64,000 nt of DNA from Argopecten irradians (Eukaryota; Mollusca; Bivalvia; Pectinida; Pectinidae), in contig NC_091134.1 in the NCBI RefSeq assembly GCF_041381155.1, forward strand, positions 13,394,008 to 13,458,007, written 5' to 3'. Each line of letters starts with the position of its first letter. Position 1 is the stretch's first letter. The position numbers and the translations under genes are program-made. Below, in pieces: positions 175 to 54,400 of this stretch. The notes under the pieces were generated by a model. The model did not search any database. It saw only the letters and a program-made list of their open reading frames with translations, and had not been told where the DNA came from.

Positions 175-985
175 TGCGATGTAAGATATCTCATATAGTA
201 TATGATATATCTTATATAATTTATAAGATATCTTATATACTATATAAGATATATTATATAATATATCTTATATCAAATTTTCAATGAATCTTCAAATATA
301 AGATATCTTTTTTAATTTATCTATATACGACATCTTATATATAACACAAAAAGTCTCCATACCCAAAATATCTCTTGAGTCTACATTGAGTCAAGTACCG
401 TATACTTCTACTCGTTCAACCAAACTCTTGGTGGCTTCGCATGCTACTCCAATATTAAGCGTTTAAATTGAACAAGACAAAAGCATGCATTTAGATTGTC
501 CGTTATTATATTTATTGTCGATACGTCCGAACCGATAACAGGAGTTATGGAAATAAATGCTTTTGCGTTTTCAATATGTCATTGAATGCAACCAAACAGC
601 GCTAGCTTCTCCCTTTCAGCGTCATCTCCGCCATTTCGAACGGTTCTTAAATGTGCACCAAAGTACTCCGAATAATGCTCGAGGGAGAAATTAGTTTCTG
701 TTTTAAATGCTACGAAAACTCATAAATGAGATATCTTATATGCATTATGAGAAATCTTATGTACATAAATAAGATATCTAATTTCCTTTCTATATGAGAT
801 ATCATATTTTCTATATAAGATATCTTATATAATGATATCAAATATAATGTATAAGATATCATATATTATGTATGAAATATCTTATATACTATATGAGATG
901 TCCTATAGGTTATATGAAATATCTTATATAAATATTCATATAAAAGATCTTATATAATTATACCATATATCTTATATAATTCAAT
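175..985. repeat. AT-rich palindromic GATATCTTATAT repeat field
   Basis: Two blocks (about 175-345 and 725-985) are built from many imperfect copies of the short palindromic motif GATATCTTATAT and its reverse complement. Between them lies about 380 bp of ordinary sequence. No coding potential is visible. The field lies beyond the 3' end of the minus-strand discoidin-PAN gene. A TTTATT at 511-516 (AATAAA on the minus strand) is a possible but distant poly(A) signal for that gene. Confidence 0.7.
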
Positions 986-1031
986 TAAATACGAGATAGA
1001 CCTTGCTCCTTCCATAATTGTTATATCGGCT

Positions 1032-1033
<2 letters not shown>

Positions 1034-1100
<67 letters not shown>
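1034..1100. repeat. (TA)n microsatellite
   Basis: A run of alternating TA dinucleotides broken only by single CC interruptions. The short reading frame across it on the minus strand (Tyr-Ile repeats) is an artefact. Confidence 0.95.
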
Positions 1101-1101
<1 letters not shown>

Positions 1102-1342
1102 GATAAACAAATATATTTAATCTATCAACAAAAGCACTAGAAGACATCAGCTTAATTCTGTCTAAAATCAATCCAGGTGTGTAAATATAGGGATTCATCG
1201 TCCATTTGACTGCATATACAGTAATATCAACTCAGTTGGTTCCGAACATAAAATAATGGAGCGCTAAAATGTTTGTTGTCAACTGCGTTCACAATACCGT
1301 GGGCGTAGGCAAAATGAAGACCAATCCTTAAATGATCATATT

Positions 1343-4300
1343 CTAATTACCATTCCGAACAAAATAGGAAACACCTCCAGATGGATTGATGGTGGATCCA
1401 TGTTTGGAAAAGACTATATTTGAATACACCTGACAAAACATTCGGTGTGCGTCAATAGTGAAGGACACACACGATGTGCGTTCATGACACATTCTGCCGC
1501 ATGCTTGGAATGTCGCTGACTTTGATTCGGCGATGAGCATACTCTTCAGAGCGTCATACGGCGGGGTTGGTAGCCGAACATATGTAGTCTTGGTAAAAGC
1601 TGCTGGAACAGAACAATCAAAACTAAAGATGATTCCTTAAAAAATGTTAAGATATATCTAAATTAAAACTAACGCTGATTCCTTAAAAAATTGTTAAGAT
1701 ATATATAAATCAAAACTAACCTTGATTTCTCACAAAATAGTTAAGATATATCTAATTCAAAACTAACGCTGAATTCTTACAAAATAGTTAAGATATATCT
1801 TAATTAAAACTAACGCTGATTTCTTATAAAACAGTTAAGATATATCTAAATCAAAACTAACGCTGATTTCTTGAAATAAAACTGGTTTTGATATATCTAT
1901 ATCATATTTATCGTTACAACACAGTTAAGCATACATTCGTAAACATATATATTGAACATATATAATGGACATCGAAAATGTACAATTGCACTTGTATAGT
2001 ACAGTTTTCGGTTTATATCATTAATTAACATATCATATACCAATGCATAGCTTGCGTATCACTTTGTCGCACATTACATCTTATTAATTGTGTATGTTAT
2101 CTTGATAAATGTTCTTAAAATAGTTCCTGTGGATCTGTCATTAATGCAATGCCATGCAAACATAAGCAATTATCTCAGTCAATGAGACGGGACATTGCAA
2201 ACAGCGACGCAATTTTTGCATTAATGGCCTTATAAAATTAATTTTGAAAATTAATATGAATGATCTTTACAAGCAGAAATGAATCATATTATTACAGTAG
2301 CTTACGTACGGTCCTTTTTTACTTTGTAACATCCACTGACGTCAAACCGCATACTTATATGGCCATGCCATGATTGCGGATTAATGCGAAGATACAGTGC
2401 TGTGATTTCAGGATTTAGTGTTGTTACGCTTGTCTCAAGTGAGTTGTTGTTTCCATGAAATAACTGCAATAAATATTTAAAACTCAAACATTAATATATC
2501 CCAGGCCCTAATAGCCTTAGATGTCGATGGACCCTAAAACTCAAACGAACAAACTAACTATTCGAATATTGATATTCAAATAATTAAAGAAAAAGTTGTG
2601 AATAGGAAAGTTTTATTGTATTTAGAGGGATAATCACAAAATAAAGAAGTTATTTATACAAGTAATTGTGATTCTGAATACAATTATTGGATATATTGTC
2701 TAATTATTGTACTTTTTCATTCTACATGCGATCGTCCTCTCGATATTTCAGGGGTTTCTAAGCAACACCTTAAGTCTACATCTGTGTAATGATCCTGGGA
2801 CCTGAGTACCTTTCACAGTATCAGAAAACATTCGGACAAAACTAAATTTCTTTGGAAAGTTCTATTATATTTCATTTTGAGTTACTGATTATCACACTAT
2901 GCGTTCAACCTTTGAAATTGGGGTCTAAAATTTGAAATCTGAAAATCATAAAAAAGGCGTTTTGGTTTCGCAAAATCGAGTTTAGTCGCTTAAAGTAATA
3001 TATGACATTGTAAAACAAACTAGTTCATAGAGAATATTCCTTGTTTCTTGATGAATACCTGTAATATTCCATCGAGTGAAGTGGAAACTTTGACATGTAT
3101 CACGAGTGAAACACATCAACTTTGACATGTATCACGAGTGAAACACATCAACGTTTCCCCTAACGAAATGAAATGTTACTGGTATTTATAAGATTTTGTC
3201 TCGCTTCCATTTTCAGAAGACCAACACTACTAGTTCTGCCAAGGATTTTTCCGCCAATGTAATTAACAGAGTTATTTGTCCTTGCGATTACTACGTCGTA
3301 TTTTTGTGAGCATAACGTCATATTTCTACAGAAAAATATCACGATTTTTTTCTCGCACAAACTAATGACGTAACAATCAAAATTATATTTTTACTGTGAA
3401 TGCTGCATTCCGATTGGTCAAAAACGAGTGATGATATCAAAAAATGTTATTTCAACTGGAGTGAAGTATATCGCTTTTATGTGAAACGTAAAACCTTATA
3501 TTTCACTGCAAAGAATACCAGAAAGATTTCTCAATATGGACCACGTGGTGTCTGTAAATAGTTCCTTAAATAAACTGTACCTTTGGTTTGTTGTTTGAAG
3601 TCACAGTCGTCCACGTGATTCCATCCATGCTATAATGGAGAAAGTACGTGCTAACCCATCGGTCAGGTATTTCACATCCTTGAAGCATGATGATATCCAA
3701 CACGGCCTCTCTTGGAAATTTTACCTATAATAAGTTTACAAAGTATGCTGAATTAAAATTATGGTGAAATATTATAAGATATTTTCAATTTTGTTTTATT
3801 TAGATAAGCAACGTTTGTTTTTGTACAATATCTAATAGGTAATGATAATACCCGACCTTAAAATTAAAACAATTCGAGCTGTCTATAAAAACCTATCCGA
3901 ATGACCAAGAACAAATGACCTTTATACACAGGGCAATTTGTATAAAAAGTAGCCATTTGGGACCATGAGAAAGCACTCTTATAGCAGGTGGTCTTTATAC
4001 ACTAGTTGTCCTTAAGGCAGGTTTGACTGTAGTGTTTGCCATTAGTCTATGAAATACCGACAGAGATGTGCAGAGAAAAATGCTAACTAAATGAAATTAA
4101 CACTATAATAACATCTCTCAGCTTTTAATCTCAACTTTTAGTCGATACGATCAGGTACCATATGAAGAATACTCTAATAACATGGTTTTATCACTAAAGC
4201 TATATCGCACGAAGATAAAAATATTATCTAGGATATTTTTTTTTCAAATCTATAAGAGAGTCTTTCTACGATGGCCGACAGCGGCCGGCAAAAAACAACT

Positions 4301-11415: not shown

Positions 11416-14400
11416 ATGAATTCAACTTCAACTGTACATCTTATAGCGTTGATATTAGGATTTGTGATAGGTACGTACAATTCTTATTAATTGAAACTAA
11501 CAGGAAGTAAACAATAATCTTCTTATCAATGTATAACAGAAACTATATATATATATTTTTTTTTTTTTTGTCTTGGTTTTTCCGCCAATCTCATTAGACG
11601 TCGGTACCCCACGTGACCACCTTTAAAACAATGATCGACTGATAAAATTGATTGAAAAAAGTTGATTGACCGATCTGTCTATAAATAGATAGGGATTTCC
11701 CGATTCAGTGCATCAAAGCGTCGAAGTCATTTAAGCGTTTGAATGCGACATGTATTATAACGTTGAAAAATTAAGCGTTTCTAATGAAAACTGCAGTATG
11801 AGGATGCATTCGCCATCTTCTACTGTACATGTATCTGAAAATCAGGATTTATAAGAAAACTGTATCTTAATCCTCGTGTCATTGGTATGATCATTTTGAT
11901 ATTTACCCAATCAATTTCTGGTAATATATCCTGAAATGCAAATGCAGATGTATACACTAGATTTTTATGTGTCTTTTTTATTTATTGCTTGAAAAGAAAA
12001 ACCAATTCAAATAATACAACAATTGTAGCATTTTGAATTCGGTCGATGTATGTTTTTATTGCCCAAAGAAAAATTATCAACCTCGGACTACGTCCTCGGT
12101 CGATAATTTTTCTTTGGTCAATAAAACATGCATCGACCTCATCAAAATGCTATAATTGTATATTAAAATATATGATAGCATTTTAATACTTTTTAATATT
12201 GGTGATCGGGCAGGTTAAGATTTGCAGAATACATTGTTAGTATCTTACAATACAAGGATTATATATGTGCACGACTTATGAAAGCCAAGATGACCTTATT
12301 ATATCAACATTCAGCCATTGGCCTATACACAACTTTCAAAACGAAAGCAAATTGCCTGATATTTATTTAGTTTGGCTTGAAGCAAGACGCTGCTTTGTTG
12401 CGTAGGAAATTATTATTTCACTAAACCTGATTAAGAGTGTTCTCCTTTTTATTACCGTGGAAAATACATAAGCGCCTTAGTAAACAGTTCCAGTAATCCC
12501 GTTTTTGAAATTCTGAGTGTCGTATGGTTATTACTTAACAGACATTAAATTACCAAAAAAATCAAAGAATTCCATTCAAAGAATCATTTACAATATATAC
12601 ATTTGTTATAGCTAAGACGATACCGCAAAACAGGGGTTTCGATATTATGAAAATGACGTCATTCCACTAAATGTGACGTCATGTTTCGGCGATATAGAAT
12701 GCCTTTATAATTACCGGAAGGTTAAAATTCTGGGTCAAGTTAAGTTAGAAAATATTCCGTCAGAAGTGGACCAGATTCACATTAATCGTATAAGCGTAAT
12801 CATATTTTTTTAAAGTACATGTTCATCCGCAGTAGTTATCAGTAATATTATGCGGTAGTTGCAGGATAAAATTCTAAAATATTATTTTACTAGATTTCGT
12901 CGATTGAGTTCATGGTTCTGTTATATAAAAATATATCATCAGATATCATCATGTATCTACTCTCAATCCTTTGTTACAATTTATTTATATAAGTTTTATC
13001 ACCTTAACCATTTTTTTTCTGATCGACCTTACACGGTATACAGGACGTTCCTCTGCTAATCTCGCTGCTGAGCTTGGAGACTGTCCACCCTCACTTCCGC
13101 GAAATCAAAACGTGAGGTCGTATAATAACGTTTGTCTATACCTCATCACGGGAAAGATGTCCTGGAATGGGGCGAATTCGAACTGTCATCAGCACGGAGG
13201 TCGTCTGGTACAGATCCAGGACCAGGATAAACAAGACTTCATCTACCATACACTGAAGGCCATGCACTGGGGCGACTGGGGTGTATGGATAGGGGCCACG
13301 GACCACCACAGCGAGGGAACATGGAAATGGACAGACGGTGGGATATATTATCGTAAAAAAATATGATATAAATTATTTGACATAGACGGTAACTTATTTC
13401 AGTCAGATAAATGCTTGAGCTAGTTTTTCGTTCTTCATGACAACATGATTATCTACAATACAAAACTGTCTATTTACTATTCTTTTTAATTTTGTTGTGA
13501 ATCTCTTTCGAATCATTCCATTTCTGAATGTAAACGTTTAAAACATATGATGAGACAATAAAGTTCTGAATATCTCCTCTTGTATTTGATGATAAGATAT
13601 CATTTTTGTTTTAAAGCCACACTATACGTAACTACATGTATCAACAAAAATTCAAGTTAAATTCGACTCCGATGTCGTTAGTGTTTTTAGATGTTGTTGA
13701 AATTAAGATATATTAAAGAGTTTTTATAATGTTTTTTTTTAATAACTTTGGTACAGCAGTTGTTGAAAGCCGATACATGTAAACATGCCTTCATTTTAAA
13801 CTGATCGCCATAGAAGTTACAATTATTGCCGAACGGAAGTCGGAAAAATCATGACCCGTTTTAGGAAGAGTTCTGACAGACGTTACGTAGTTACGGTAGT
13901 CACATGGCGTTCTCGGCAACGACATTACAATGTCGGCTAACTTTGGCTTGTTTTACTAAGTGGGACCCGCCTAGCGATGTTCAAATATTTATTTGATTTT
14001 TATCAAAATATTTTGAATCATAATCGCTCATCTTGACTTCGACTTAGTCCTATCTCTGCATGATTTACAGCAGGAATTTTTTTTCAACGTTCTTCTAAAT
14101 CATGGAAAAAAATAAGAAAGATACGGATATTGGGCCTTTAAATATCCTCTAGGTACGAAACTGTCATATGGATACTGGCATCCGGGCGAAGGACCAACTC
14201 ATGGATTCCTTTTTTCTAAGGCTGGGTATGAGGACTGTGCCTTAATGCGGCTCAATGATGGTGGACGATGGTTTGATTACGACTGTGGGACTATTCTATA
14301 CCATCATACCTCTATCTGTGAATATCGTAAGATTATGTACTGGGTAACACATTGTTGAAATATTTTTCAAGGTGATAAAATTGTCTCGCATTATATTTTA

Positions 14401-15942
14401 CCTGATACGGCAATCCAATACTACTACAAATAAGATTTTGTTTAATTTTGAAACAAAAGTATGAAGAATGACATTAATATAAAATATTTTGTTACATGTG
14501 ACAATACTTTAATGATGTAAGAGAAAAAGAAAATTGCAGAGCCTCTGCCTGTAAGCGTATTAATAGATTAAAACGCCAGTCATGTGGAATAATTTCATTT
14601 AGATACAATGAATCATTTTGTCTTGATCATTTACAGCAGAAATGTTAGAATATGAGAAATCACTTATAAATATATGTTAAATGATTGTCCATCTAAGATG
14701 CCACAGGGGCTCTATTAGACATAGATGTGAAGTAATCAGCAAATTTCGAATGAACATTTTTGCAGTTTCACAACACATTTACTATTACAGAAAAACTTGT
14801 ACGACCAACAACACAATCGCCAGCAGAAAATAGATCGACCCGGACAATATCACCAATTGTCACAGAGACAACTCGTACTACAATATTGACAACCACTACA
14901 AGTACGTTTTGAACATTCTTCATTTTCGTATAAACTTTCTGTGTAGTACATACCATGTAGGCATCGACAGCTTTTGATACATTTACATATAAAATAAGTC
15001 TCATCTATAGATAAAAGCTCTTTTTTAGATCAAAATGACAAGAAGTATCTCCAAGCATTGGCCTTAAAATGTGCAATTGACTACCACATGTTGAAAAATA
15101 ATGAGAGTCATGTTCTGTATTTGATTTATTTCACAGGTTTCTCATATTAAAAATTAATTTGCTTTAACATGCGATGTATATATTGGAGAGAAATATTGGA
15201 TTTTTATTTGAAAACATAATCCCAACAGAAACCTGCTCCAGATTACATCCGACTGCAGCTGCTGTGAGAATCTACAGGAACATCTGTCTGAGTTTTATCC
15301 GAGGTAACAAATCATGGAATGACGCTCAAAGTGAATGTACAACTCAGGGAGGTATGCTGTTACAGATACACGATCAGCAGGAACAGGATTTCGTATTTGG
15401 GAGCCTCAAGTCTCTACATTGGAGTGACTCCGGAGCCTGGATAGGAGCTACAGATCGAAACAATGAAGGACATTGGAAATGGAACAATGGTAAGATGACA
15501 GATATTAATTTCCGTATTCAGGATAAAAAATTGAAAATGACACATTGCAAACAAAACATTCTAAATTTGTTATGTTTCTGTTATACATACTTATTAATAT
15601 TGCCTAAAGTATTATTCGATATATATGTTTATGCAACAATGCATACTTATCTAATATTATCATAATGTTTTTTAACATATACATTACTTTGTAAAACTAG
15701 ATAAAAATATACATATTGTAAAACGAAGAATGAGTCGTTTTGGTGTTACGTACCATTATGTTGTTGATCTTATTGATACTGTAGGAGCATCACTTAACTA
15801 CAGCAACTGGAGTCCTGATGAGGGACCACACCACATTGCCCTGAACGAAAACTGTGCTTATATAAATGTCGATAATGGGTTGTGGTATGATTTCAATTGT
15901 GGGGAAGTTATCTACAATCAGGCATATATATGCCAAGACTGA
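11416..15942 (+). CDS. Secreted protein with two C-type lectin domains (lectin gene 1), six exons
   Basis: Exons: 11416-11470, 13044-13337, 14153-14326, 14791-14901, 15229-15489 and 15785-15942. All five introns are phase 1; total 1053 nt, 350 residues. Residues 1-19 are a signal peptide. The first C-type lectin domain (about 30-175) contains WIGATDHHSEGTWKW, YWHPGEGPT and RWFDYDC. The linker (about 176-211) is Thr-rich and probably O-glycosylated. The second domain (about 213-350) contains WIGATDRNNEGHWKW, NWSPDEGPHH and LWYDFNC. Both domains have the six cysteines of the long form. At the usual Ca2+/sugar site, EGP replaces EPN or QPD, and WFD/WYD replaces WND, so the sugar specificity cannot be assigned. 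Poly(A) signals follow at 16398 and 16427. A secreted recognition lectin, perhaps in innate immunity, is the best guess. Intron 2 carries a MITE and intron 1 a hairpin repeat. Confidence 0.92.
12019..12160. mobile_element. Hairpin MITE-like element in lectin 1 intron 1
   Basis: Arms of about 68 bp are inverted copies. The left arm carries TGTAGCATTTTGA, GGTCGATGTATG and CCAAAGAAAAATTAT; the right arm carries their complements. The centre is almost loop-free (CCTCGGACTACGTCCTCGG). Lectin 2 has no such element in its much shorter intron 1 (539 versus 1573 bp). Confidence 0.8.
13615..14137. mobile_element. TTAA-flanked MITE in lectin 1 intron 2
   Basis: Ends read TTAA-AGCCACACTATACGTA on the left and, on the reverse strand, TTAA-AGGCCCAATATCCGTA on the right (about 12 of 16 positions match). 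The 523 bp element is flanked by TTAA duplications (13611-13614 and 14138-14141), as in piggyBac-type transposition. It ends 15 bp before exon 3. Removing it and one TTAA leaves an intron of about 288 bp, close to the 300 bp intron 2 of lectin 2. Confidence 0.75.
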
Positions 15943-17673: not shown

Positions 17674-20600
17674 ATGAAACCAACTACAGTTGTGCCTCTT
17701 ACAGCATTCATATTAGGATTTGTAACAGGTATGTGAACATTATATTATTAATTTGAATCTAACAGGAAGGAAAACATGATCATTTATATTACGTCTTATA
17801 GATGAAATATTTAATAAGGGGCAAAGAAGAAATTCTGACAGTGTGGACAAAAGATTGTTGAATTTTCGAGGCGATCTGCCCATTTGTCAATACACAAGAA
17901 AAACAAATAAAATTACATATTTAGGACGCCGCGGACGTTCACAAATACATGAACAATGAACACATATAGAACATATAGATAAACTAAAGGGACAATATCT
18001 ATGCGTATTGCCTGAATATCTAATACCTATGATAATAGGACTATTATATAAGTATTATTATATAACCGAAACCAATAGTAATGTAATATGTAATAGTTTT
18101 TGAACATTTTTGATATGACTGGTCGAAGGGATGCATTAATCTACTAGCATTGATCGACTATCATTTCACAAGGGCTATTTCCTTGCTTTTCAATGAAGTA
18201 ACATGTTCACTGCCTTCTTTATGTCATCTCAAAACCTAAATCAAGTTTATTAATCAACCTTATTTAGGACGTCCCTCTGCTAATATCGCTGTCGAACTTG
18301 AAGACTGTCCACCCTCACTTTCATATAATGACGTCTGTCTGCTTTTCGTCTCGAGAAAGATGTCATGGAATGGGGCCAATTCGAACTGTCATCAGTACGG
18401 AGGTCGCCTGGTACAAATCCAGGACCAGGATAAGCAGGACTTCATCTACCATACACTGAAGGCCATGCACTGGGGCGACTGGGGTGTATGGATAGGGGCC
18501 ACGGACCACGACAGCGAGGGAACATGGAAATGGACAGACGGTACGTCTATCTATCAAAGAAAAAAAGTAAAACATGATATGAATTCTTTGACAGAAATTT
18601 GACCACAATATTAGCAACGTGAATACGTAATATATACATAGATGAATTTTATATCCTGTTATATTTGTTGTCAACGAGGCAAAATAATCATGAAGTATAA
18701 TACAAATTGAATTCATGTAATGTCCATCAAAAAACCTCAATCGTTCTCTTTTCCATTATACTGCAGGTCATAAACAAATATGTTCAATATAATTTAGAAC
18801 GAAAGTGAATTCGAACCTGTTTGTATTGTGTCTGTTTTAGGAACAAATGTAACGTACGGGAATTGGCATCAGGGCGAAGGACCAACTCATGGATTCCTTT
18901 TTTCTAAGGCTGGGTATGAGGACTGTGCCTTAATGCGGCTCAATGATGGTGGACGATGGCATGATTACGACTGTGGGACCATTCTATATCATCATACCTC
19001 TATCTGTGAATATCGTAAGTCTATTTAAAGAGTAATATACATGTATTATATATATATATATATCCCGTAAGTCAATCTTCTTACATTATTTGTTTATTTT
19101 CGGAAGAAGTCTACACTATATGAAGTAACCGCTTTAGCCTCCTACGCTGCCTGAAAATGAAAGTTGTTATGGTCCTTTCGGGTCACCTCGTTGTTTATAC
19201 GAGGCGTAACCTACACAACAAAGACAAAATGAGAAAAAAATATACATTTGTATACATTTGAACATTCCGTATGTAAATGTGAGCCATCATCGATTTAAAA
19301 AACGGATTTAGGACAATTTTATGTCATTGTTTTTGTATCAGGGCTGCTATCGTTTTAGTGATGGCAGTTTGCATAGTTGTATTGGATGATTTTATTTGAA
19401 GAATTGTCACTCTTCCCAACGGTAGTAACTTTTTGTTTGTTTGTGAAGATTTTTTGTTTGTTTGTGAAGATTTACTAGAAATATGTTTTAGCCGCTGAAA
19501 CTTAGCGGGGTAGAATTTTTGTCTCTTGGAACTTTCCTCTCTTCTTGTAATATGTACCTGTAGAGTAAGAGTTTAACCAATTTTTTCTAGATCCCAAATA
19601 CCTCTAAAATTTGTCTATAGACACTATGGTAGGTTCAGATTGTTGTTTTAACAGTCAAAATATCAGAATATCAAACTCAAATTTGTGTACAAAGATGTTC
19701 CATGCATGATAAAGGATTTGGTTTCTATTCACATGGATATAACTGTTTAAACAATCTCCAAAATAAGAACTAAGATATATTTCAGTCTTTAAAAACACTG
19801 TCAAGTGATGGTTTTCATTTTTACAGAGAAAGGTGGTCGAAATAACGTTTCACAAACGTCAGCAACTAGACCGACTTCGACAATGCCAACAACAATCACA
19901 TCGACAGCGAGTAAAACAACTACAAGTACGTCAGTCACAGCGACAGCGAGCACGACTACAAGTACGTCAGTTGCATATTTAAACATACAAATCTAAATCA
20001 TTTACGTGTAATAGATATCAGGAAAGCAGCACATTTCTCATTACAAAATACGTCTTTTATAAAAAGAACCATGAGAGTCCTGCTCTGTTGCCTTTATTGA
20101 AACATTTTGTATGTAGTGTAGATTCATAGACAATTTTATGACATTTTTATAACATATTTGCATTCGGCAAATCAGGAACCTTCGGCACTCTTTCGTTTAT
20201 GGAGAGTGAGAGTTTCGGATTGTATTTTCAGGTTTACTGAAAGTGCCGAAAGTTCCCGATTGCCGATTCAGTTTACATTTGTTTTATTGCTCTACAGAAT
20301 CCTGTCCTAGATTCAACCCAGCTACAGCTGTTGTGAAAATCTACAGGAACACTTGTCTAAGTTTTATCCGAGGTAACAAGTCATGGAATGACGCTAAAAG
20401 TGAATGTACAACTCAGGGAGGTATGCTGTTACAGATACACGATCAGCAGGAGCAGGATTTCGTCTTTGGGAGCCTCAGGTCTCTACATTGGAGTGATTCC
20501 GGAGCCTGGATAGGAGCTACAGATCGAAACAATGAAGGACATTGGAAATGGAGCAATGGTACTATTAAAGACAAATTGTACTTTTCAAATACGGGAAAAT

Positions 20601-21003
20601 GGCAAAGAAAAGACATTTATAACACATGGCAAAAAACAGTTAACATTACGTATATATGATTTTTTCCTCCTATGTGTGAAATTATAGCTCAAACCTTCAT
20701 TTGAATATATTTCATTATATATATGTTTGTTTAAACAATCAACTTAATAGTGTAGGTATCTTATATTATCTTATATTATCATATAATATTTTAGTTTACT
20801 GCTTCTTACTGTAACTAAAGCATTGGTTAATTTATAATGTAGGTGCATCACTTAACTACAGCAATTGGAGCCCTCGGGAGGGACCACACCACAGTGCCCC
20901 GAACGAGAACTGTGCCATGGTGAATGTCGATGATGGGATGTGGTACGACTACGATTGTGGAGAAGTTATCTACAATCAGGCATATATATGTCAATTCGAA
21001 TAA
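17674..21003 (+). CDS. Secreted protein with two C-type lectin domains (lectin gene 2), six exons
   Basis: Exons: 17674-17728, 18268-18540, 18841-19014, 19827-19961, 20298-20558 and 20843-21003. All introns are phase 1; total 1059 nt, 352 residues. The layout matches lectin 1: signal peptide 1-19, first lectin domain about 29-168, Thr/Ser-rich linker about 169-212, second lectin domain about 214-352. Key motifs are WIGATDHDSEGTWKW, NWHQGEGPT, RWHDYDC, then WIGATDRNNEGHWKW, NWSPREGPHH and MWYDYDC. Compared with lectin 1, exon 2 is 21 nt shorter (seven residues lost between the first two cysteines), and WFD in domain 1 is WHD. Exon 4 has two possible in-frame donors (after 19925 or 19961). EGP stands where EPN or QPD normally binds Ca2+ and sugar, so binding is uncertain. 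It is clearly a tandem duplicate of lectin 1. Confidence 0.92.
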
Positions 21004-39400: not shown

Positions 39401-42400
39401 ACAATCCAGACGGAAATGTCAGGGAACGGATTTCCGTATCGGTATTTATACTCACTAGTCCGGAAATTCGTATTCCGAATCCTGAACTCCATTTTGGGAA
39501 CGGAATGTAATTTTCGTAAATAAATTCCCGCATTAATCCGGACAATTTGTTGTCACGACGTGCCAAGAAAATCCAAGGCCAGCTACAGTCATGTGTACAA
39601 TACACACTTATTAAATCATGATCACTTGTCACTGACTGTGTTGTCATAACGACGGCTGCCAGGTCATAGCCACGGGCGTTTACGTGTACACCTTTCCCAC
39701 ACGGGTACATGCAGTCATGTAACGGTTCATTAGTTTTCTATAGGAGATCAAACTTCAGTGTTGTAATTGAGATACGCAATATATTTTTAGCCAAACGCTT
39801 TTAAACATGCAGTTTGAGTTTGGGTACGGGTACGTATGTTGTAGATACCTTACTTGTTTCGCATGCAGAATATATCGCTATGAGTATCGGATACAATAAA
39901 GTGAGATAATACTCACAAAATAAACAATAATTTTAAATGTATGTGAATCTATTCGAATTCATCGTCTGTGGTATAAGATATAAAGGCTACGGCATATGCC
40001 ATCTACACGTGTGTGATATTGTGCATGAAGTTAGACGTGAACGGGCGCGTGGTTGTTACACACGTCTGTAAGTCATAAAGCAAAGACTTGTGGAAATGGT
40101 GATTAAAAACACACATTATACAAAATAACAGTTATATAAGTTCATAAAATGTTCACAACTATTTGTTATCATAGTTTTTTATGCCAAGAACGTAGATGAT
40201 ATTGATCCTTGGTTAGTTAATTTGCCGTACGACAGATCAAGAGTGGGATAGGTAGTTATATGCATACATAGTAATTGCACAATATGAAAAAAAATAATTA
40301 ATTGCATCCCGAAAAAATTCCGTGGCACTATATTCTAATGAAATGAAGTACTGATTGGGCATGCACCAAAGGCAGAAATAAATTATTTTACATTATTTTT
40401 TGTGTTAATTAGGCATATATATACACGATTAAACACAGATTATTGTTCGAATGATGAATATCATTTATGCTCTGTCGGCGGTGGAGCATCTTTAAGCTAA
40501 CTTTCATTCGCAATGCATCAACAAATCTTCAAAATATATTCACCATTGGCACTACAAATGTATGTACTACATGTAAATGGAATGAAGTGCATGCTCCAGA
40601 ATCAAAATAAATTACTATATGTATGTATATGTTTTTGTTTTAATATATACATTTATTAAACATGCTTTGTTGGCTATGGAACATCTTTAATTAATTAATG
40701 CACATTTTCCTATTTAGATGGAAATATTTATTGGGATCAGAAATTAATATCTATTGCAACATAAAATTGCCGTTAACTACTGGAAATCATTCGTACTGTA
40801 TGTTTATTTGAATTGATACATATTATCATAAAATTTCATTTATATAAGGACGTTTAGCAGAAGTTAAAAAAAGCAAATTAACTGCGTAGCAAATTAACTG
40901 TGTACAGGTTGTTACGTTAAACCACCTACTGGTCATGTCTCATCAAGGATTGTTCAAGTCCGCATTTTACTTTTCTTAGCTAGTGATATATAGTTTACGT
41001 AAACATAAAGACTTCTTATCAATCTTACTTTGGATAGTTCAAACCAAGGACGTAGATGAAATTCTTGTTAGAACACATAAAGTGATGAACCTTGTGTGAA
41101 GTAAGATTTTCAGTGTTGGCAAATCGTCGCCTATGAGATATTTTGATCTTAAATCTTGTGCACTCCGTGTCTACCTGTAGTCTAAACGTAGTGCACTCCG
41201 TGTGAACAAGGCTGTATAACTTTTAGTCTACTACCGACTAGCTGTACCTAAAAATTGTGGAACAGTTACAAAACTGTCTTATTATACTGCGTATATTTAA
41301 AGGTTCACTTTGACATTGACATTTATAGACACACTGAAATTGATTTAGACCTGAATCTTTAATTCCTGTGTCATTTGGTGATTCTGACTTCAGCAAGACT
41401 CATACAAAATTGCTTCCTAAAGCTAGTTTTGGCATATTATCACGAAATACCAGAGTTGATTACGATTGGTATATTTATTTCTATAGTGAATCATGTCCTT
41501 TCTGAGACATGTTGACAGACAATTGTGGCTAATGTGCTGTGAAAACGTCTCTATGTTTTTAAATTTGACATACAAGATATGTATACAACAAGTATCTATA
41601 AAATGTATAAATGTGTATGCAAGTGTAAAAGGAGCGGGTCGGTGTGACTTGTACATAGTGTTAAATACGGTCTCTGTCACTCAGCTGACGGAGCATGCTT
41701 CTTTGGCTCAGTCGGTAGAGCCGTAGATTTCCACGCCGGAGACCCGGGTTCTATTCCTGGTCGGGGCACTCGACATGAATGTGTATTTTCCCTGTTCTTC
41801 TACATTGGCGCCCAACTAAATAACCTATGGAAGGTGGTTAAAGAGTCTCGGGTTGAGATTTAGGAAATCTCAAGAAAAACAGGGGGGGTAGTGTAAAAGG
41901 AGCGGGTCGGTGTGACTTGTAAATAGTGTTAAATACGGTCTCTGTCACTCAACTGACGGAGCATGCTTCTTTGGCTCAGTCGGTAGAGCCGTAGATTTCC
42001 ACGCCGGAGACCCGGGTTCGATTCCTGCTCGGGACACTCGACAGGAATGTGTATTTTCCCTGTTCTTCTACACAAGTAGTAAGGGAGGCAACTCTTACAA
42101 CATACAAGCGTATTGGATATCAACCAATGACAAAGCTGGTCATCAATTTTTTTAATTTTTTTCCCAAATTTTGCATAATAATGTAAAAGATAGATTATGA
42201 GACCTTGAAATTTTGTAATACTGCAAAATCTCCTTTACAACAACATTAAATTTTTAATTGAAAATTACATAGGGATATGGAGACAGTTATGATATAGTAA
42301 TGAGACAATTGCTTCATATGTTTGATACGTACCCGATTGTTTTTCAAACTGAGATTTAATAATTTACCCTCTGTGCTAGCTGATAATGCATAATACAAAT

Positions 42401-45400
42401 GAAAAGCTCTAACGGAGTGTATTCACCTACAATTTAAAAAAAATACATACATATATATATATATATATACATCAGGCCATGTGAAATACAAAATTTTTAC
42501 ACGATGGTCCAGTGATCTGATTACAGGACCAAACTCACCTTCACAAGACATTTTGACATAAGATTGCTTACTATATGAAGCGTAACATTAACAAATGATG
42601 ACTCAACCGGAAGTTGTAAAATGCAGATTGCCCTTGCGACAGAAAAATGGCACACCACTGTGCCATTTTCATTTATGACTGTTTTTAAGTGTGATCCTAT
42701 AGCACTATATGTTTAATATATAATGGAGTAGCTGGACTAGAACACTTTTATCGATCCGTACCGCAACACTTATATAGATATATGATAAAAAATACATTCA
42801 AAATGTATAGTTTTTGGGGGGAGAAAGAATGGGGATATAGTATCTCTAAATGCAAATGCTAAATTTACTGTGATATAGAGAAAAATATAACAACAGGAAG
42901 AATATTGCAATAATTATAAATATATATTTCAAACGAGCATGTAATATGCACAGCAAGGACATTAACATTTTTACATTAGAATAATAACTATATAATAATA
43001 TATCGGCCGCATTAGTATAAGATAAAATGGACAAAGTATATTAATCCTAAGTAAAGAACATGCATATATCACAGGGGATAATTCAACATTATATTTTTTC
43101 AGTGTCATGGAAAATGTGCAGATTACATTTGTAAAACAATTACCATTATAAAGTGGGCCTCAACAGTAAACCTCCACAATATACAAACTCCTCCCATTGT
43201 GAAATGTGACACCCTCCAACACACACAAATTACAACACTACAAATTCCCTTATATAGTCCTCCTGTTTTCTAATGTGATCTGTAGGCTACGTGATCCAGT
43301 GTGCCCCTACAATATACAGACTCCTTCCCTTTTGAAATGTGACCCTTGCAGTATATACAGGCTCCTCCTCCTGTTTTCAAGAGTGACCCCTACAATACAC
43401 AGTCTCTATACCTGTTTTCAAGTGTGACCTTCAAACTATTAAGACTTCAACCGTTTTCAAGTGTGAGTACTGCAATCTATTCAGACATCTACCGTTTTCA
43501 AGTATGACTTCACAAAGTACATGTGACCTTTACACTTTACAGACTCCTCCCATTTTGGAATGTGACACCTACGATATACAGACTTTACCCGTTGTCAAGT
43601 GTGACTCTCACAATATATAGATTTCACCTGTTTTGATGTGTATCCGTTCAATATATAGACTCTACCCGTTTTCAAATATGACCACTACACTATACAGACT
43701 CCTCTCGTTTTCAAGGTTTTCAAGTGTGACCCCTGAAACATATATACCGACTCCTACCATTTTCAAGTGTGACCCTCACAATATATAGATTTCGTCCGCT
43801 TTCAAGTGTGACCCCTGTAATATACTGACTCTACTCGTTTTCAAGTGTGATCCCTACAGTATTCAGACTCCTCTCGTTTTAAAGGGTGACCCCCTGCAAT
43901 ATACAGACTCCTTCCGTTTTCAAGTGTGACCCCTTACAATACATCCCTGCAGATAGGGTGTGATAATTGTTCCTGCTGCCACTATTGCATGATCGAATGG
44001 CGGCTAAATTTAGAATATCATCTTTTCTCTTCTTTCTAACCGACTTTATTCTTCCTAATGTCTCCTTTGACTTCGCCTCACTTTTGGCCTATGGTTGAAC
44101 GTTCGCCCCTGTAAGGTAGGCTCTGGGTTTTGTCCCCTGGCTAAGACACACCAAAGTCTATAAAAGTGGTAGCTTCTTCTCCTGCTTATCGCTCAGCATA
44201 CAGAGTAGGACGACTGGTTCGCCCGTTGTCAGTATAATTTGACCGGATGAGGTGTGATGCTTGGTGTCTTCAGCACCATGCTTCAGTGATATAGCACTAT
44301 AAAACAGTTCCACTATATAAGATGACACAATACAAACATGCGTACTGCAGTCTCCCAAAGCACGCACCTTGCATTACACACAAGCTACACAACGCACACA
44401 TGTACATGGGATGCCTTCCTTACATCACTGCGGTTGTTCATGATCATAGGACGCTAATAAATCTAACAAATAAACAAACATGATTACTTATTCGATTTCT
44501 TGATTACTGAATTATAGAATTCCTAGGTACAAATTTACTTAAAATGGTTCAAAATGTATTGCTTTCTAGCACCAACAAACATAAACTTAGGGAATCCCAT
44601 CTACCACACCGTAGACAAGAGTTGTCTCCATTCCCCTTTATCAAGCCACAAGGGCACAATGGCTGGAGAGGAAGGGAGGGGGGCAGAAACGCGGGACCCC
44701 ATAAAGTTAAGGTGAATAGTACATCACGAAAATTGGTTTTACATTGAAAAAAACTTATTTTTCAGTATTGTGTTACCATTACTATAGTATGCGAATTGGT
44801 CTTATCGTAGTTGAGAGTCCTCAACCATGCAGCTCAGTCATGCGGCAAAACCAGGAGACAAGCCCCAAATAATTCAATGTTTTAAATAATAAAAAAGGGT
44901 TCAACGAATCCTCACAGGAAAGGGATAGAAATGGATTTAGCTCACTGTGGAAAAAGGTGTATCACAGTTATAGTTTAAGATAATAAATATATATAATGTC
45001 TATTGAGGAGGCACAGTCACAGACTGCGCCGACATATTCAGACCTAAAGAAATCAGACCATCAGAATGGAAAGAGAAAAACCGGAGGTAAAAGTCAATGA
45101 AAGTCGTCTGACCACTCCAGGACAAAGAGAGAGCAGACATGATTGCCTGAAATGAGGAGCAATTGAGGAGAGTCAATTTAGCCGCAAGAACTGCATATGA
45201 GCCCTCATCTTGCATATCGCCTGCTCATATGCAATAACCCCTCCCCTGATTTTTTCATGGTAAAACCTTAATGCCCGACAGAGACAATTCAACCGATCAT
45301 TCTCCTCAGTCTCTAGAGGGGAGGAATCCTAATGGAATTTTTGCCAAAGATCAAAGAGAAGGGTAACAGCAGAGCTATCTCTTGTCCAACTGAGGCATGG

Positions 45401-51400: not shown

Positions 51401-54400
51401 TGTCACCGCGTAGCTGAATTCATATTGGAGGTGCTTAATATTTGATATTGATGGTAGAAAGAAGCGCATTTGGTTTTATGAATGAAAATCTACCAACATA
51501 TCGACATTGACGGACAATCATAAAGTGATGATATAGATTGACATAATCTCATTGATGTTACCAAGAAATCACGTAATATGCAATATCTGTTTTCTGTGGG
51601 AGTTTCCATTAAGTTTTGTATCTGTGACAATTTAAACAACAAATGAATGTGAAGGAAATTTATTGTGCTGTGATGCTTCGGTATTTGTGTTTATGATACA
51701 GAGCATTACAATGGCAATGAAGAGGCGAGACAAAAACTACAATCCTACGGAGAAGGCCATACGAGAGGCGGCATTCAAACACCTTCAAAAAGATGATGAG
51801 GATAAAGTACCAATAAAAACTGTGTTGTATGTACCTCACCGGAGCCGCTACTTTGGACGATTCCCGATCGTGTCTGTACACAAACATCCTCGGGATGGCC
51901 GTTATGTGGTTGTTGAACAACGTGCCATACACACAAATTTCTCAGATAGGCATCATGAAATCCAACGTTTGGAAGAGCTGGAAAAAGAGAGCGGGTCTTA
52001 CGACCCAGAAATTAAATTTCGCAGTCTAAAACCAGCATGGAAATGGGGTACAAAAGGAAATAATATCGAGCGTTCATTTAACCGGTCATATAAGGAGCCG
52101 TACCTACCACCTATAAATATGCCATGGTCATCGGGTTCCAAAGTGGGGTCTCTTGATAATGCTGATCACACACCAGGTGGGGGTAACAAAAAGGTGCCTA
52201 ATTATAAACTAAAATGGGAGGCAAGAGCTAAAATTGGCTCGTTAGACAACATCGACTACGATAAACGATGGAATCAAAGTCAATCAGGGTCCGACATTAG
52301 CGTCCAAAGCGATCCCATTGGTGGAGTAGTTCTGCCAAAAATCAAAACCGGTCATCATGGACAGCCGTTTCTTGGTCCTCTCAGCTCCTCAAACTTTGTT
52401 CCTGGCGGAACAGCACATTTGGTGAAAAAGAAAAACACAGCAAAAGCAAAAGTTGGATCGCTAGATAACATAAACTACGAGACATACGGAGGGAAGTCAG
52501 AAATCCCACATTTTGGTAAACCGAAGTGGAAAACGGAGGCCAAAGTTGGATCTTTGGATAAAATCTTTCATAAACCAGGGGGAGGAGATGTCGTAATACC
52601 AAATTTAAAACCAAAGTGGAAGTCGGAGTCAAAGATTGGATCGCTAGATAACATAGATCACGCTCCAAATAAACAAAAATTCCATGTGCCACATTTTCAG
52701 GAAAATTGGAAGGAGTCTGCAACATCGAAAGTCGGTTCATTGGAAAACGCGGAACACGTGCCAAAGGGTGGTGATGTTACGGTTTACAACCATTCACAGA
52801 AATGGAACAAAAAGTCAAAAATTGACCATCTTTGGAAGAAAAAACCTGTTTATATTGATCCCAATGACATTGAATATGATGAAGATAAGGAGATCGAAGC
52901 TAGAATCCGGGCAATGCTTTATCATGGCGAGTAGATTATCGTGGTAGAGATCTGTGGAGTCCAAAGATCTTATCTAGTATTTAATTGAAATGCCATCTTT
53001 CGTACCTTACATATCTTGAACATTGTAGTTGACTAGTTGTGTAGTACAAAAATCATTCATATTATTATCATGTTCAAAGAGTTTAAACGTTGACATCCAT
53101 TTTTCAGAGTAGAACTTTTATTCTTAACATCCAACATTTCATTATTTCTTTTATAAAATTTTAATGTTAACCCAATGCTTACAAAACCGAACATAATGAA
53201 GTACGTGCGCTAAATGATTTGTTTTGATACTCTAAGTCGTGAAATAAAATTCGATTCGAAGTACGAACTAAACATATCGGCAAAACCCTACGAAATCATG
53301 TAACACTATACTTCCCATACGATAAGGTATATTGTAATGATTTAATAAACGATAAACTACAATGTATAAACCTTATTTACTAACATTGATTTCGAGATAA
53401 GTTAACCAACTTTCGTGAGCGCGTAATGGATGATAGAGTAGTAGAAAACCGGAAACCCACGTGATCCGGTAGAAAACTCCTGTCCTTATATACTTGTGTT
53501 AAGAATTAAGCCATGAAGAACGATAATTATCTTAATCATCCCGCCATCCGATCAGCCATTACATTGTATTTCTTACAGTCTATAATACGTGATTGACTTT
53601 TTAGTCTTAATTTTCTTTTAAGAATGTTTCTCAGCATTATACTTTAATTTGATCACACTTCATCAGACTGAATAATGTTAGGTAGCAATTATTTTTATTA
53701 TTATTATTTTTTTTATATTTTATTTTGCATTGAATATAGTGACTTATTTAAATAGTAATCAAAGTACCAAACCTATCAATTTATCGGGTAAATACCAGAG
53801 ACGGTAGTCTGTCCTGTTGCCCTGTTAGAGTTAGCATGGCGATTGCATGAACCGCATTAACTTCATTATTTGTTCTTTCAAAAGTCTTTGTATGTCTGTA
53901 CGCTGCTTTAATTAAGATAATTAAGTTATTTCTGTAAGAATATTTACTATGTACAGTAAAACACGTTTATATCGAGCACTCTTTCACAACTCGTGATGGT
54001 TACCGTCATGGTTCCTGTAAGATGCAGGTAGTTATATGTGTATAAGAAATTGTACTTATAACAAAGTGGTTTTGTTGGTCCCCAAAGATTCGTTATAACC
54101 GTATTTTACTGTATGCTTTTTCTGTGTAATAATGAGCCATACTGTGATGGTTGTTACATATAAAATATAACAAAGAATGATTGTCATCGATATGAAATAT
54201 TTTTAATAAACAAATGTTTATATTGCTCTTTGAGTTCGATTTTTTCCTTGATCCTTCAAACAGTCTTGATTAAGATCAATCACTTAATAAATGTGCTTAG
54301 ATTTTTTTGTAATTTTCTTCTTTTTTTCTTCATCTAAGTGAGATAACATTTAACAATACATCTGTAAAGAAATTCAAATCCTAAACTTAAATATATTAGA

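Follow-up and report, generated by a model that had tools for sequence, protein, structure and literature searches.

A 449-bp segment of the Argopecten irradians genome raises the question of whether an animal LTR element can carry a tRNA-type RNA polymerase III (Pol III) promoter inside its own LTRs and, if so, how such an element would be transcribed and copied. The segment lies in a 64,000-nucleotide stretch of contig NC_091134.1 (the window, to which positions refer unless another sequence is named). Our best explanation, to which we give a probability of about 0.8, is that it is a Helenus-type TRIM, a non-autonomous element for which the tRNA-like promoter would direct Pol III transcription and a Gypsy-type element would do the copying; we infer the polymerase and the partner from sequence features.

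Structure of the element

A preliminary description of this locus proposed a complete miniature LTR element with equal 181-bp LTRs, a primer-binding site (PBS), a G-rich tract and CAAG flanks, and every one of these parts was found again when the sequence was re-read (Table 1). The two LTRs differ by six substitutions and no indels. The 11 bases of the PBS can pair without interruption with the 3' end, CCA added, of a tRNA-Lys(CTT) whose gene lies in the same genome (L049); complementarity ends at 11 bases in this element and in a sister family, B, and covers 18/18 bases in a protein-coding LTR element with the same PBS junction (L083, see below). A run of seven Gs (41882-41888) stands 3 bases upstream of the 3' LTR. 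The list of open reading frames contains none of 130 or more amino acids inside the 449 bp, and the enzymes for copying must therefore be supplied from elsewhere. Short direct terminal repeats, a PBS, a polypurine tract, small size and no coding capacity, the features that define a TRIM, are all present. Predicted folds also suggest a hairpin upstream of the purine tract.

Table 1. Features of the element at 41624-42072, in window positions
Feature	Position	Strand	Remarks
Complete TRIM	41624..42072		449 bp; LTR-PBS-internal-purine tract-LTR; read directly from sequence
Left target-site duplication CAAG	41620..41623	.	Second copy at 42073-42076
5' LTR	41624..41804	+	181 bp, TGTA...TACA
tRNA-like segment, 5' LTR	41697..41768	+	RF00005, 28.6 bits (gathering 29), E 8e-4, model positions 1-71 of 71
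A box TGGCTCAGTCGG	41704..41715	+	LTR position 81
B box GGTTCTATTCC	41747..41757	+	LTR position 124
TTTT, candidate weak Pol III stop within the LTR	41786..41789	+	LTR position 163; putative function
Internal domain	41805..41891	+	87 bp
PBS TGGCGCCCAAC	41806..41816	+	Single T separates PBS from 5' LTR end
Polypurine-like tract CAGGGGGGGTAG	41880..41891	+	Adjoins 3' LTR
3' LTR	41892..42072	+	181 bp, TGTA...TACA
tRNA-like segment, 3' LTR	41965..42036	+	RF00005, 17.7 bits, E 0.84; below gathering, alone not significant
Right target-site duplication CAAG	42073..42076	.	Direct reading

Some other features of the window and the genome were recorded along the way. A degenerate 39-bp tandem repeat (about 10 copies, 43522-43941) lies near the TRIM. 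A 423-amino-acid open frame at 51663-52934 (+) contains six stretches of tau/MAP tubulin-binding repeats (PF00418, E 6e-42), and three short frames at 12971-13366, 15174-15665 and 20243-20659 (+) match the C-type lectin domain (PF00059) and are possibly exons of a lectin cluster. Outside the window, tRNA-Lys-type 3' ends recur every 2.3-2.8 kb on the same strand at C15:3407579-3435147, C16:16665617-16684912 and C762:2700-22629, apparently as tandem tRNA clusters.

Copies across the genome

The pair of LTRs is the only LTR-type repeat pair in positions 41300-42400, as might be expected if a local segmental duplication were imitating an LTR pair. A search of the 845.76-Mb genome (that of the window) makes that explanation extremely improbable. 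The full element gave at least 46 matches when the best 40 of 1433 candidates were scored, 44 of them nearly full-length at 96-100% identity and falling in 40 loci (four pairs overlap inside arrays), which is beyond chance. The LTR alone gave at least 73 matches (best 40 scored of 1399 candidates) and the internal domain at least 40 (best 40 scored of 305 first-look candidates); all three counts are lower bounds.

For closer study, 48 loci were picked by their similarity to the window copy. One (L038) duplicates another (L004) and was set aside; the other 47 loci contain 48 places. Of these, 38 are two-LTR elements and 6 are solo LTRs, three are 3-LTR arrays, and in one array a partial LTR accompanies three others. 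The preliminary description had called for a search for solo LTRs and for full copies with target-site duplications (TSDs) of 4-5 bp. Both were found, and the length is 4 bp: exact 4-bp TSDs flank 31/38 two-LTR copies, 4/6 solo LTRs, 2/3 three-LTR arrays and 0/1 three-plus-partial arrays, and 5-bp TSDs flank 0/38 two-LTR copies. Left and right flanks taken from different places as a control agreed over 4 bp in 60 of 2256 combinations. Two of the tallied places (L025 and L027) have identical flanks, are apparently one insertion and are thus counted twice.

Identity between the two LTRs of a copy, with gaps ignored, ranges from 93.6 to 100% (median 98.1%) over the 38 pairs, and some insertions look recent because 5/38 pairs are without substitution. 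One insertion (L008) also has empty sites. When its flanks are joined, they align across the junction to two related sites (L100 and L101) that have ATTG once and are without the element; L099, a third related site, likewise lacks it and has a gap at the junction. These are the three that were viewed among four other matches to the flank. We considered whether the L008 insertion is polymorphic and rejected this, as the related sites lie on unplaced contigs and, at 88-89% identity, differ too much for alleles; they serve as empty sites. The flank of another copy (L003) is itself a dispersed repeat.

A local duplication is refuted by the dozens of dispersed copies with 4-bp TSDs of their own, by the solo LTRs and the LTR-internal-LTR arrays, and by the empty sites. 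The repeated genomic occurrences also dispose of the doubt, raised when the element was first described, that its two LTRs might be no more than such a duplication.

A second doubt was that the repeat unit might occur in the genome only as an ordinary SINE. A tRNA-derived SINE is a single unit with a LINE-related or A-rich tail and with no LTR, PBS or polypurine tract. The tRNA-like segment with its A and B boxes is what a SINE copied by a LINE, or two such SINEs in tandem, would have in common with the window element. Against this identity, a fixed LTR-PBS-purine tract-LTR unit with TG...CA ends and 4-bp TSDs recurs at dozens of places, solo LTRs have TSDs (4/6), and the arrays contain n+1 LTRs. 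We rejected it on TSD length and LTR arrangement and give it next to no credence; TSDs, solo LTRs, arrays and empty sites exclude a plain SINE.

The tRNA-like segment and its boxes

The Rfam scan of the LTR that had been proposed beforehand gave a full-length tRNA alignment (RF00005) in both LTRs of the window element, with both scores under gathering (28.6 and 17.7 bits; gathering 29), and no Rfam match anywhere in the window reaches its gathering score. The alignment bears out the description of a tRNA-like unit with A and B boxes in which the D and T arms are kept and the anticodon stem is broken: the two arms with their boxes are intact in the window LTRs, and the anticodon arm contains non-pairs and is degraded. 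Some other copies of the same family, A, score higher. RF00005 passes gathering in 5/8 LTRs of four other family A loci (29.4-31.4 bits), i.e., in both LTRs of L002 and L003 (31.4 bits), in one LTR of L008 (29.4 bits) and in neither LTR of L014.

The boxes are widespread among the copies. The A-box motif TRGCNNAGYNGG is found in 88/92 family A and 31/31 family B LTRs, the B-box motif GGTTCNANNCC in 84/92 and 30/31, and some TTTT in 84/92 and 31/31. In the window, ARAGORN calls only the segment in the 5' LTR (41697-41769), as tRNA-Glu(ttc), a call best taken as a by-product. Across 16 TRIM loci scanned, it called a tRNA in both LTRs at 13, and such elements therefore inflate counts of tRNA genes.

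A sister family and a chimeric array

When A box, B box and PBS are sought together at tRNA spacing, the genome has 286 exact places and a reversed control none. With the copies and TSDs described above, this confirms across the genome that the element is an animal TRIM whose LTRs each hold a tRNA-like unit with A and B boxes, as had been claimed from the window alone. By eye, the listed part of the 286 places falls into two main families, that of the window element (A) and a second one (B). A family B copy (L059) has an LTR of 130 bp and an internal domain of 93 bp. Exact 4-bp TSDs were found at 9/19 family B places parsed, with truncated, chimeric and array copies included. The B cloverleaf is nearly complete, more so than that of A, although ARAGORN gives it an odd four-base anticodon, and RF00005 passes gathering in 8/8 LTRs of four family B loci (48-55 bits).

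One copy of each family was aligned. The LTR alignment scored 87 against a maximum of 50 in 300 shuffles, and the internal domain 64 against a maximum of 36 in 300 shuffles. Common to both are the LTR ends, the boxes, an ATTTTC stretch, the PBS with the nine bases TAAATAACC that follow it, and the purine tract. These nine leader bases lie outside the complementarity to the tRNA and thereby point to common descent of A and B.

With two families to compare, we can ask what has been retained of the tRNA. Between the single copies of A and B, 16/16 positions of the D arm and 14/17 of the T arm are identical (30/33 together), compared with 1/7 and 5/7 in the two acceptor halves (6/14 in total; Fisher p 0.001 vs the D and T arms) and 9/22 aligned positions in the anticodon-variable part. 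Two points temper this result. The A and B boxes are generally conserved among tRNAs, and part of the identity between the families is therefore expected from tRNA ancestry. The 3' half of the acceptor (5/7) is also fairly alike between A and B, which counts against the Pol III reading.

The families have also met in one array (L068, C5:9356483-9357590), which reads by eye as B LTR, B internal domain, hybrid LTR, A internal domain and A LTR. The 5' part of the hybrid LTR is B-like and the 3' part A-like, and the switch lies in or beside the tRNA-like part, where the LTRs are most alike. The accessible part of the paper that named Helenus (PMC10886601) yielded no mention of a chimeric A/B array.

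We suggest, tentatively and at somewhat less than even odds, that A and B constitute a natural experiment. They would be sister Helenus families, one with a nearly whole cloverleaf (B) and one with a partly decayed cloverleaf (A), that have both kept the boxes and the D and T arms around them, the LTR ends and the PBS with TAAATAACC. Their RNA would be a Pol III transcript with neither cap nor poly(A) tail, its repeat R would span the region between the A-box start and the T-run, and the families would recombine at the tRNA patch, as in L068.

Transcription and copying

What has to be transcribed and copied is an LTR-PBS-internal domain-purine tract-LTR unit with tRNA-like LTR segments, observed as dispersed copies with 4-bp TSDs, solo LTRs, arrays and an empty site. 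The PBS, the purine tract, the TSDs and the LTR-mediated by-products point to copying of the retroviral type, and use of Pol III by the window TRIM is likely, judging by sequence. In the 5' LTR, Pol III would start just 5' of the A box and pass over the weak TTTT; it would then cross the short internal domain and stop at the TTTT of the 3' LTR or past it. The repeat R that strand transfer requires would be the stretch between start and stop. Cassandra RNA is described as beginning in the unit of the 5' LTR and terminating in that of the 3' LTR (available text of PMC10886601), and a Cassandra-like layout would here place R between the A-box start and the T-run. A tRNA-Lys(CTT) would prime the minus strand at the 11-base PBS; Gag, reverse transcriptase and integrase would come from a Gypsy-type element; and the tRNA-like part would act as a promoter rather than as a tRNA.

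The rival to be weighed here is an ordinary TRIM that starts at a Pol II promoter in its LTR and carries the tRNA-derived sequence as a passenger insertion, with the boxes as relics. Variation within family A gives it some support, as there is no clear constraint on the boxes. Non-major letters in the 92 LTRs amount to 0.72% in the A box, 1.19% in the B box, 1.72% in U3, 1.40% between A and B boxes and 0.65% in the tail, and the boxes thus do not clearly stand out as better conserved than other parts of the LTR; the 92 copies were chosen for their likeness to the window copy and vary too little for a test of box constraint. TATA-like words are also present, rarely (3/92 family A LTRs). Neither AATAAA nor ATTAAA, however, occurs in the LTRs of family A (0/92) or family B (0/31), unlike at seven non-TRIM loci with the same PBS (see below); these words occur in 2/45 family A internal domains. 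Two further points weigh against a passenger insertion: both families have kept the D and T arms, whereas their acceptor and anticodon parts have diverged more, and fungi, one plant and members of six animal phyla show the same architecture, according to the accessible part of PMC10886601. We consider a Pol II TRIM unlikely, though clearly more probable than the SINE or the local duplication.

Transcription by Pol III has a difficulty of its own, in that the polymerase would have to read through the first TTTT, which counts against it. TTTT is the most variable segment in family A (2.45% non-major letters), and one copy (L041) has no TTTT in either LTR yet has a perfect TSD, from which it follows that TTTT is not strictly needed. 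The internal domains contain TTTT in 0/45 family A and 0/18 family B copies, raw counts to which we give no weight.

Search for an autonomous partner

The PBS junction ACATTGGCGCCCAACG occurs at 37 places in the genome. Eight were viewed, and they comprise one TRIM copy (L079) and seven non-TRIM loci, which look like two families only. None of the seven continues with TAAATAACC after the PBS. In 7/7, AATAAA or ATTAAA stands 78-88 bases upstream of the PBS junction, and 7/7 are without a B box in the last 160 bases before it. Two of them encode enzymes: L083 has protease, reverse transcriptase, RNase H and integrase domains, and L084 has reverse transcriptase, RNase H and an integrase zinc-binding domain. 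We take both to be Gypsy-type from the order of their domains. Having the PBS in common does not prove partnership, and the resemblance of the L083 LTR start, spacer T and G-rich tract to those of the TRIM is only suggestive.

Another of the seven, L081, contains a 3.1-kb element (positions 195-3283 of the locus) with LTRs of about 810 bp that are 99.75% identical, a 1.5-kb interior and, by eye, the 4-bp TSD GTTA; one piece of the interior, scanned against Pfam, gave no match. L085 is without an LTR pair, and L082 is an array. We also looked for an autonomous element with the leader of the TRIM, using the PBS and TAAATAACC followed by A or G (most TRIM copies have T or C there). None was found among the 12 of 13 places viewed, all of which are TRIM-like and resemble family A or B copies by eye; this negative result weighs against our best explanation.

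Comparison with known systems

The preliminary description suggested that a tRNA-based TRIM would be new in a mollusc. This did not hold: the arrangement was published by Kojima in 2024 under the name Helenus, for TRIMs with tRNA-derived sequence in their LTRs (PMC10886601). As far as the accessible text of that paper goes, Helenus is recorded from fungi, from a single plant and from six animal phyla; in bivalves, 51 families are found in five pteriomorph orders, with oysters, mussels and scallops among the hosts. The elements are 311-1263 bp long, animal copies have 4-bp TSDs, and some families have solo LTRs and tandem arrays. Bivalve families have PBSs for tRNA-Lys, His, Ile, Pro, Glu and Ser, and Gypsy is given as the likely partner in animals. 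The same text states that Pol III transcription of Helenus is unvalidated. The literature we searched yielded no experimental Pol III test of Helenus, and the available portion of a 2026 meeting report names Helenus in a single sentence and the reference list (PMC12859917). The earlier suggestion of a SINE-LTR hybrid copied through LTR priming agrees with the origin hypothesis in the accessible part of PMC10886601.

The window element fits Helenus in the structural features tested (boxes, TSD, PBS and size). It has a tRNA-like segment with an A box (TRGCY...YGG) and a B box (GGTTC) in each LTR, a PBS and a polypurine tract; its 449 bp lie inside the range of 311-1263 bp; and it agrees in the 4-bp TSD, the tRNA-Lys primer, the presence of several families per genome, and the solo LTRs and arrays. 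This likeness is to the published description of the kind. Argopecten irradians stands in the species table of the paper (Table 1 in the accessible text of PMC10886601), and the window family is therefore possibly already in Repbase.

Three other kinds of TRIM are similar in part. Cassandra, a plant TRIM, likewise has a Pol III unit in its LTRs and forms tandem arrays (available text of PMC7215508). Its unit is derived from 5S rRNA, whereas that of the window element has tRNA-type A and B boxes, and there is no 5S rRNA match among the six Rfam hits up to E 1 in positions 41500-42200. The biv-TRIM of Satovic et al. (2019; accessible part of PMC6934838) also comes from bivalves, is similar in size and occurs as solo repeats and in tandem arrays, but it has its own repeats of 202-218 bp, an inner domain of 77-80 bp that contains TGATCCCAAAGGAC, and no clear PBS in that text. 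We rejected the window element as a biv-TRIM on its 181-bp LTRs and the absence of TGATCCCAAAGGAC. Ajax, a nemertean TRIM, has the promoter of a small-RNA gene in its LTR and belongs, like Helenus, to the class that Kojima proposed as TRIMp3; it differs in its partial 5S sequence in the LTR, its 5-bp TSDs and its tRNA-Leu primer (same text, PMC10886601).

What our results add to the published description of Helenus is an empty site, the comparison of sister families, the chimeric array and the contrast in poly(A) signals. The TSDs, the empty site and the dispersed copies support the existence in animals of LTR elements whose LTRs contain tRNA-type promoters.
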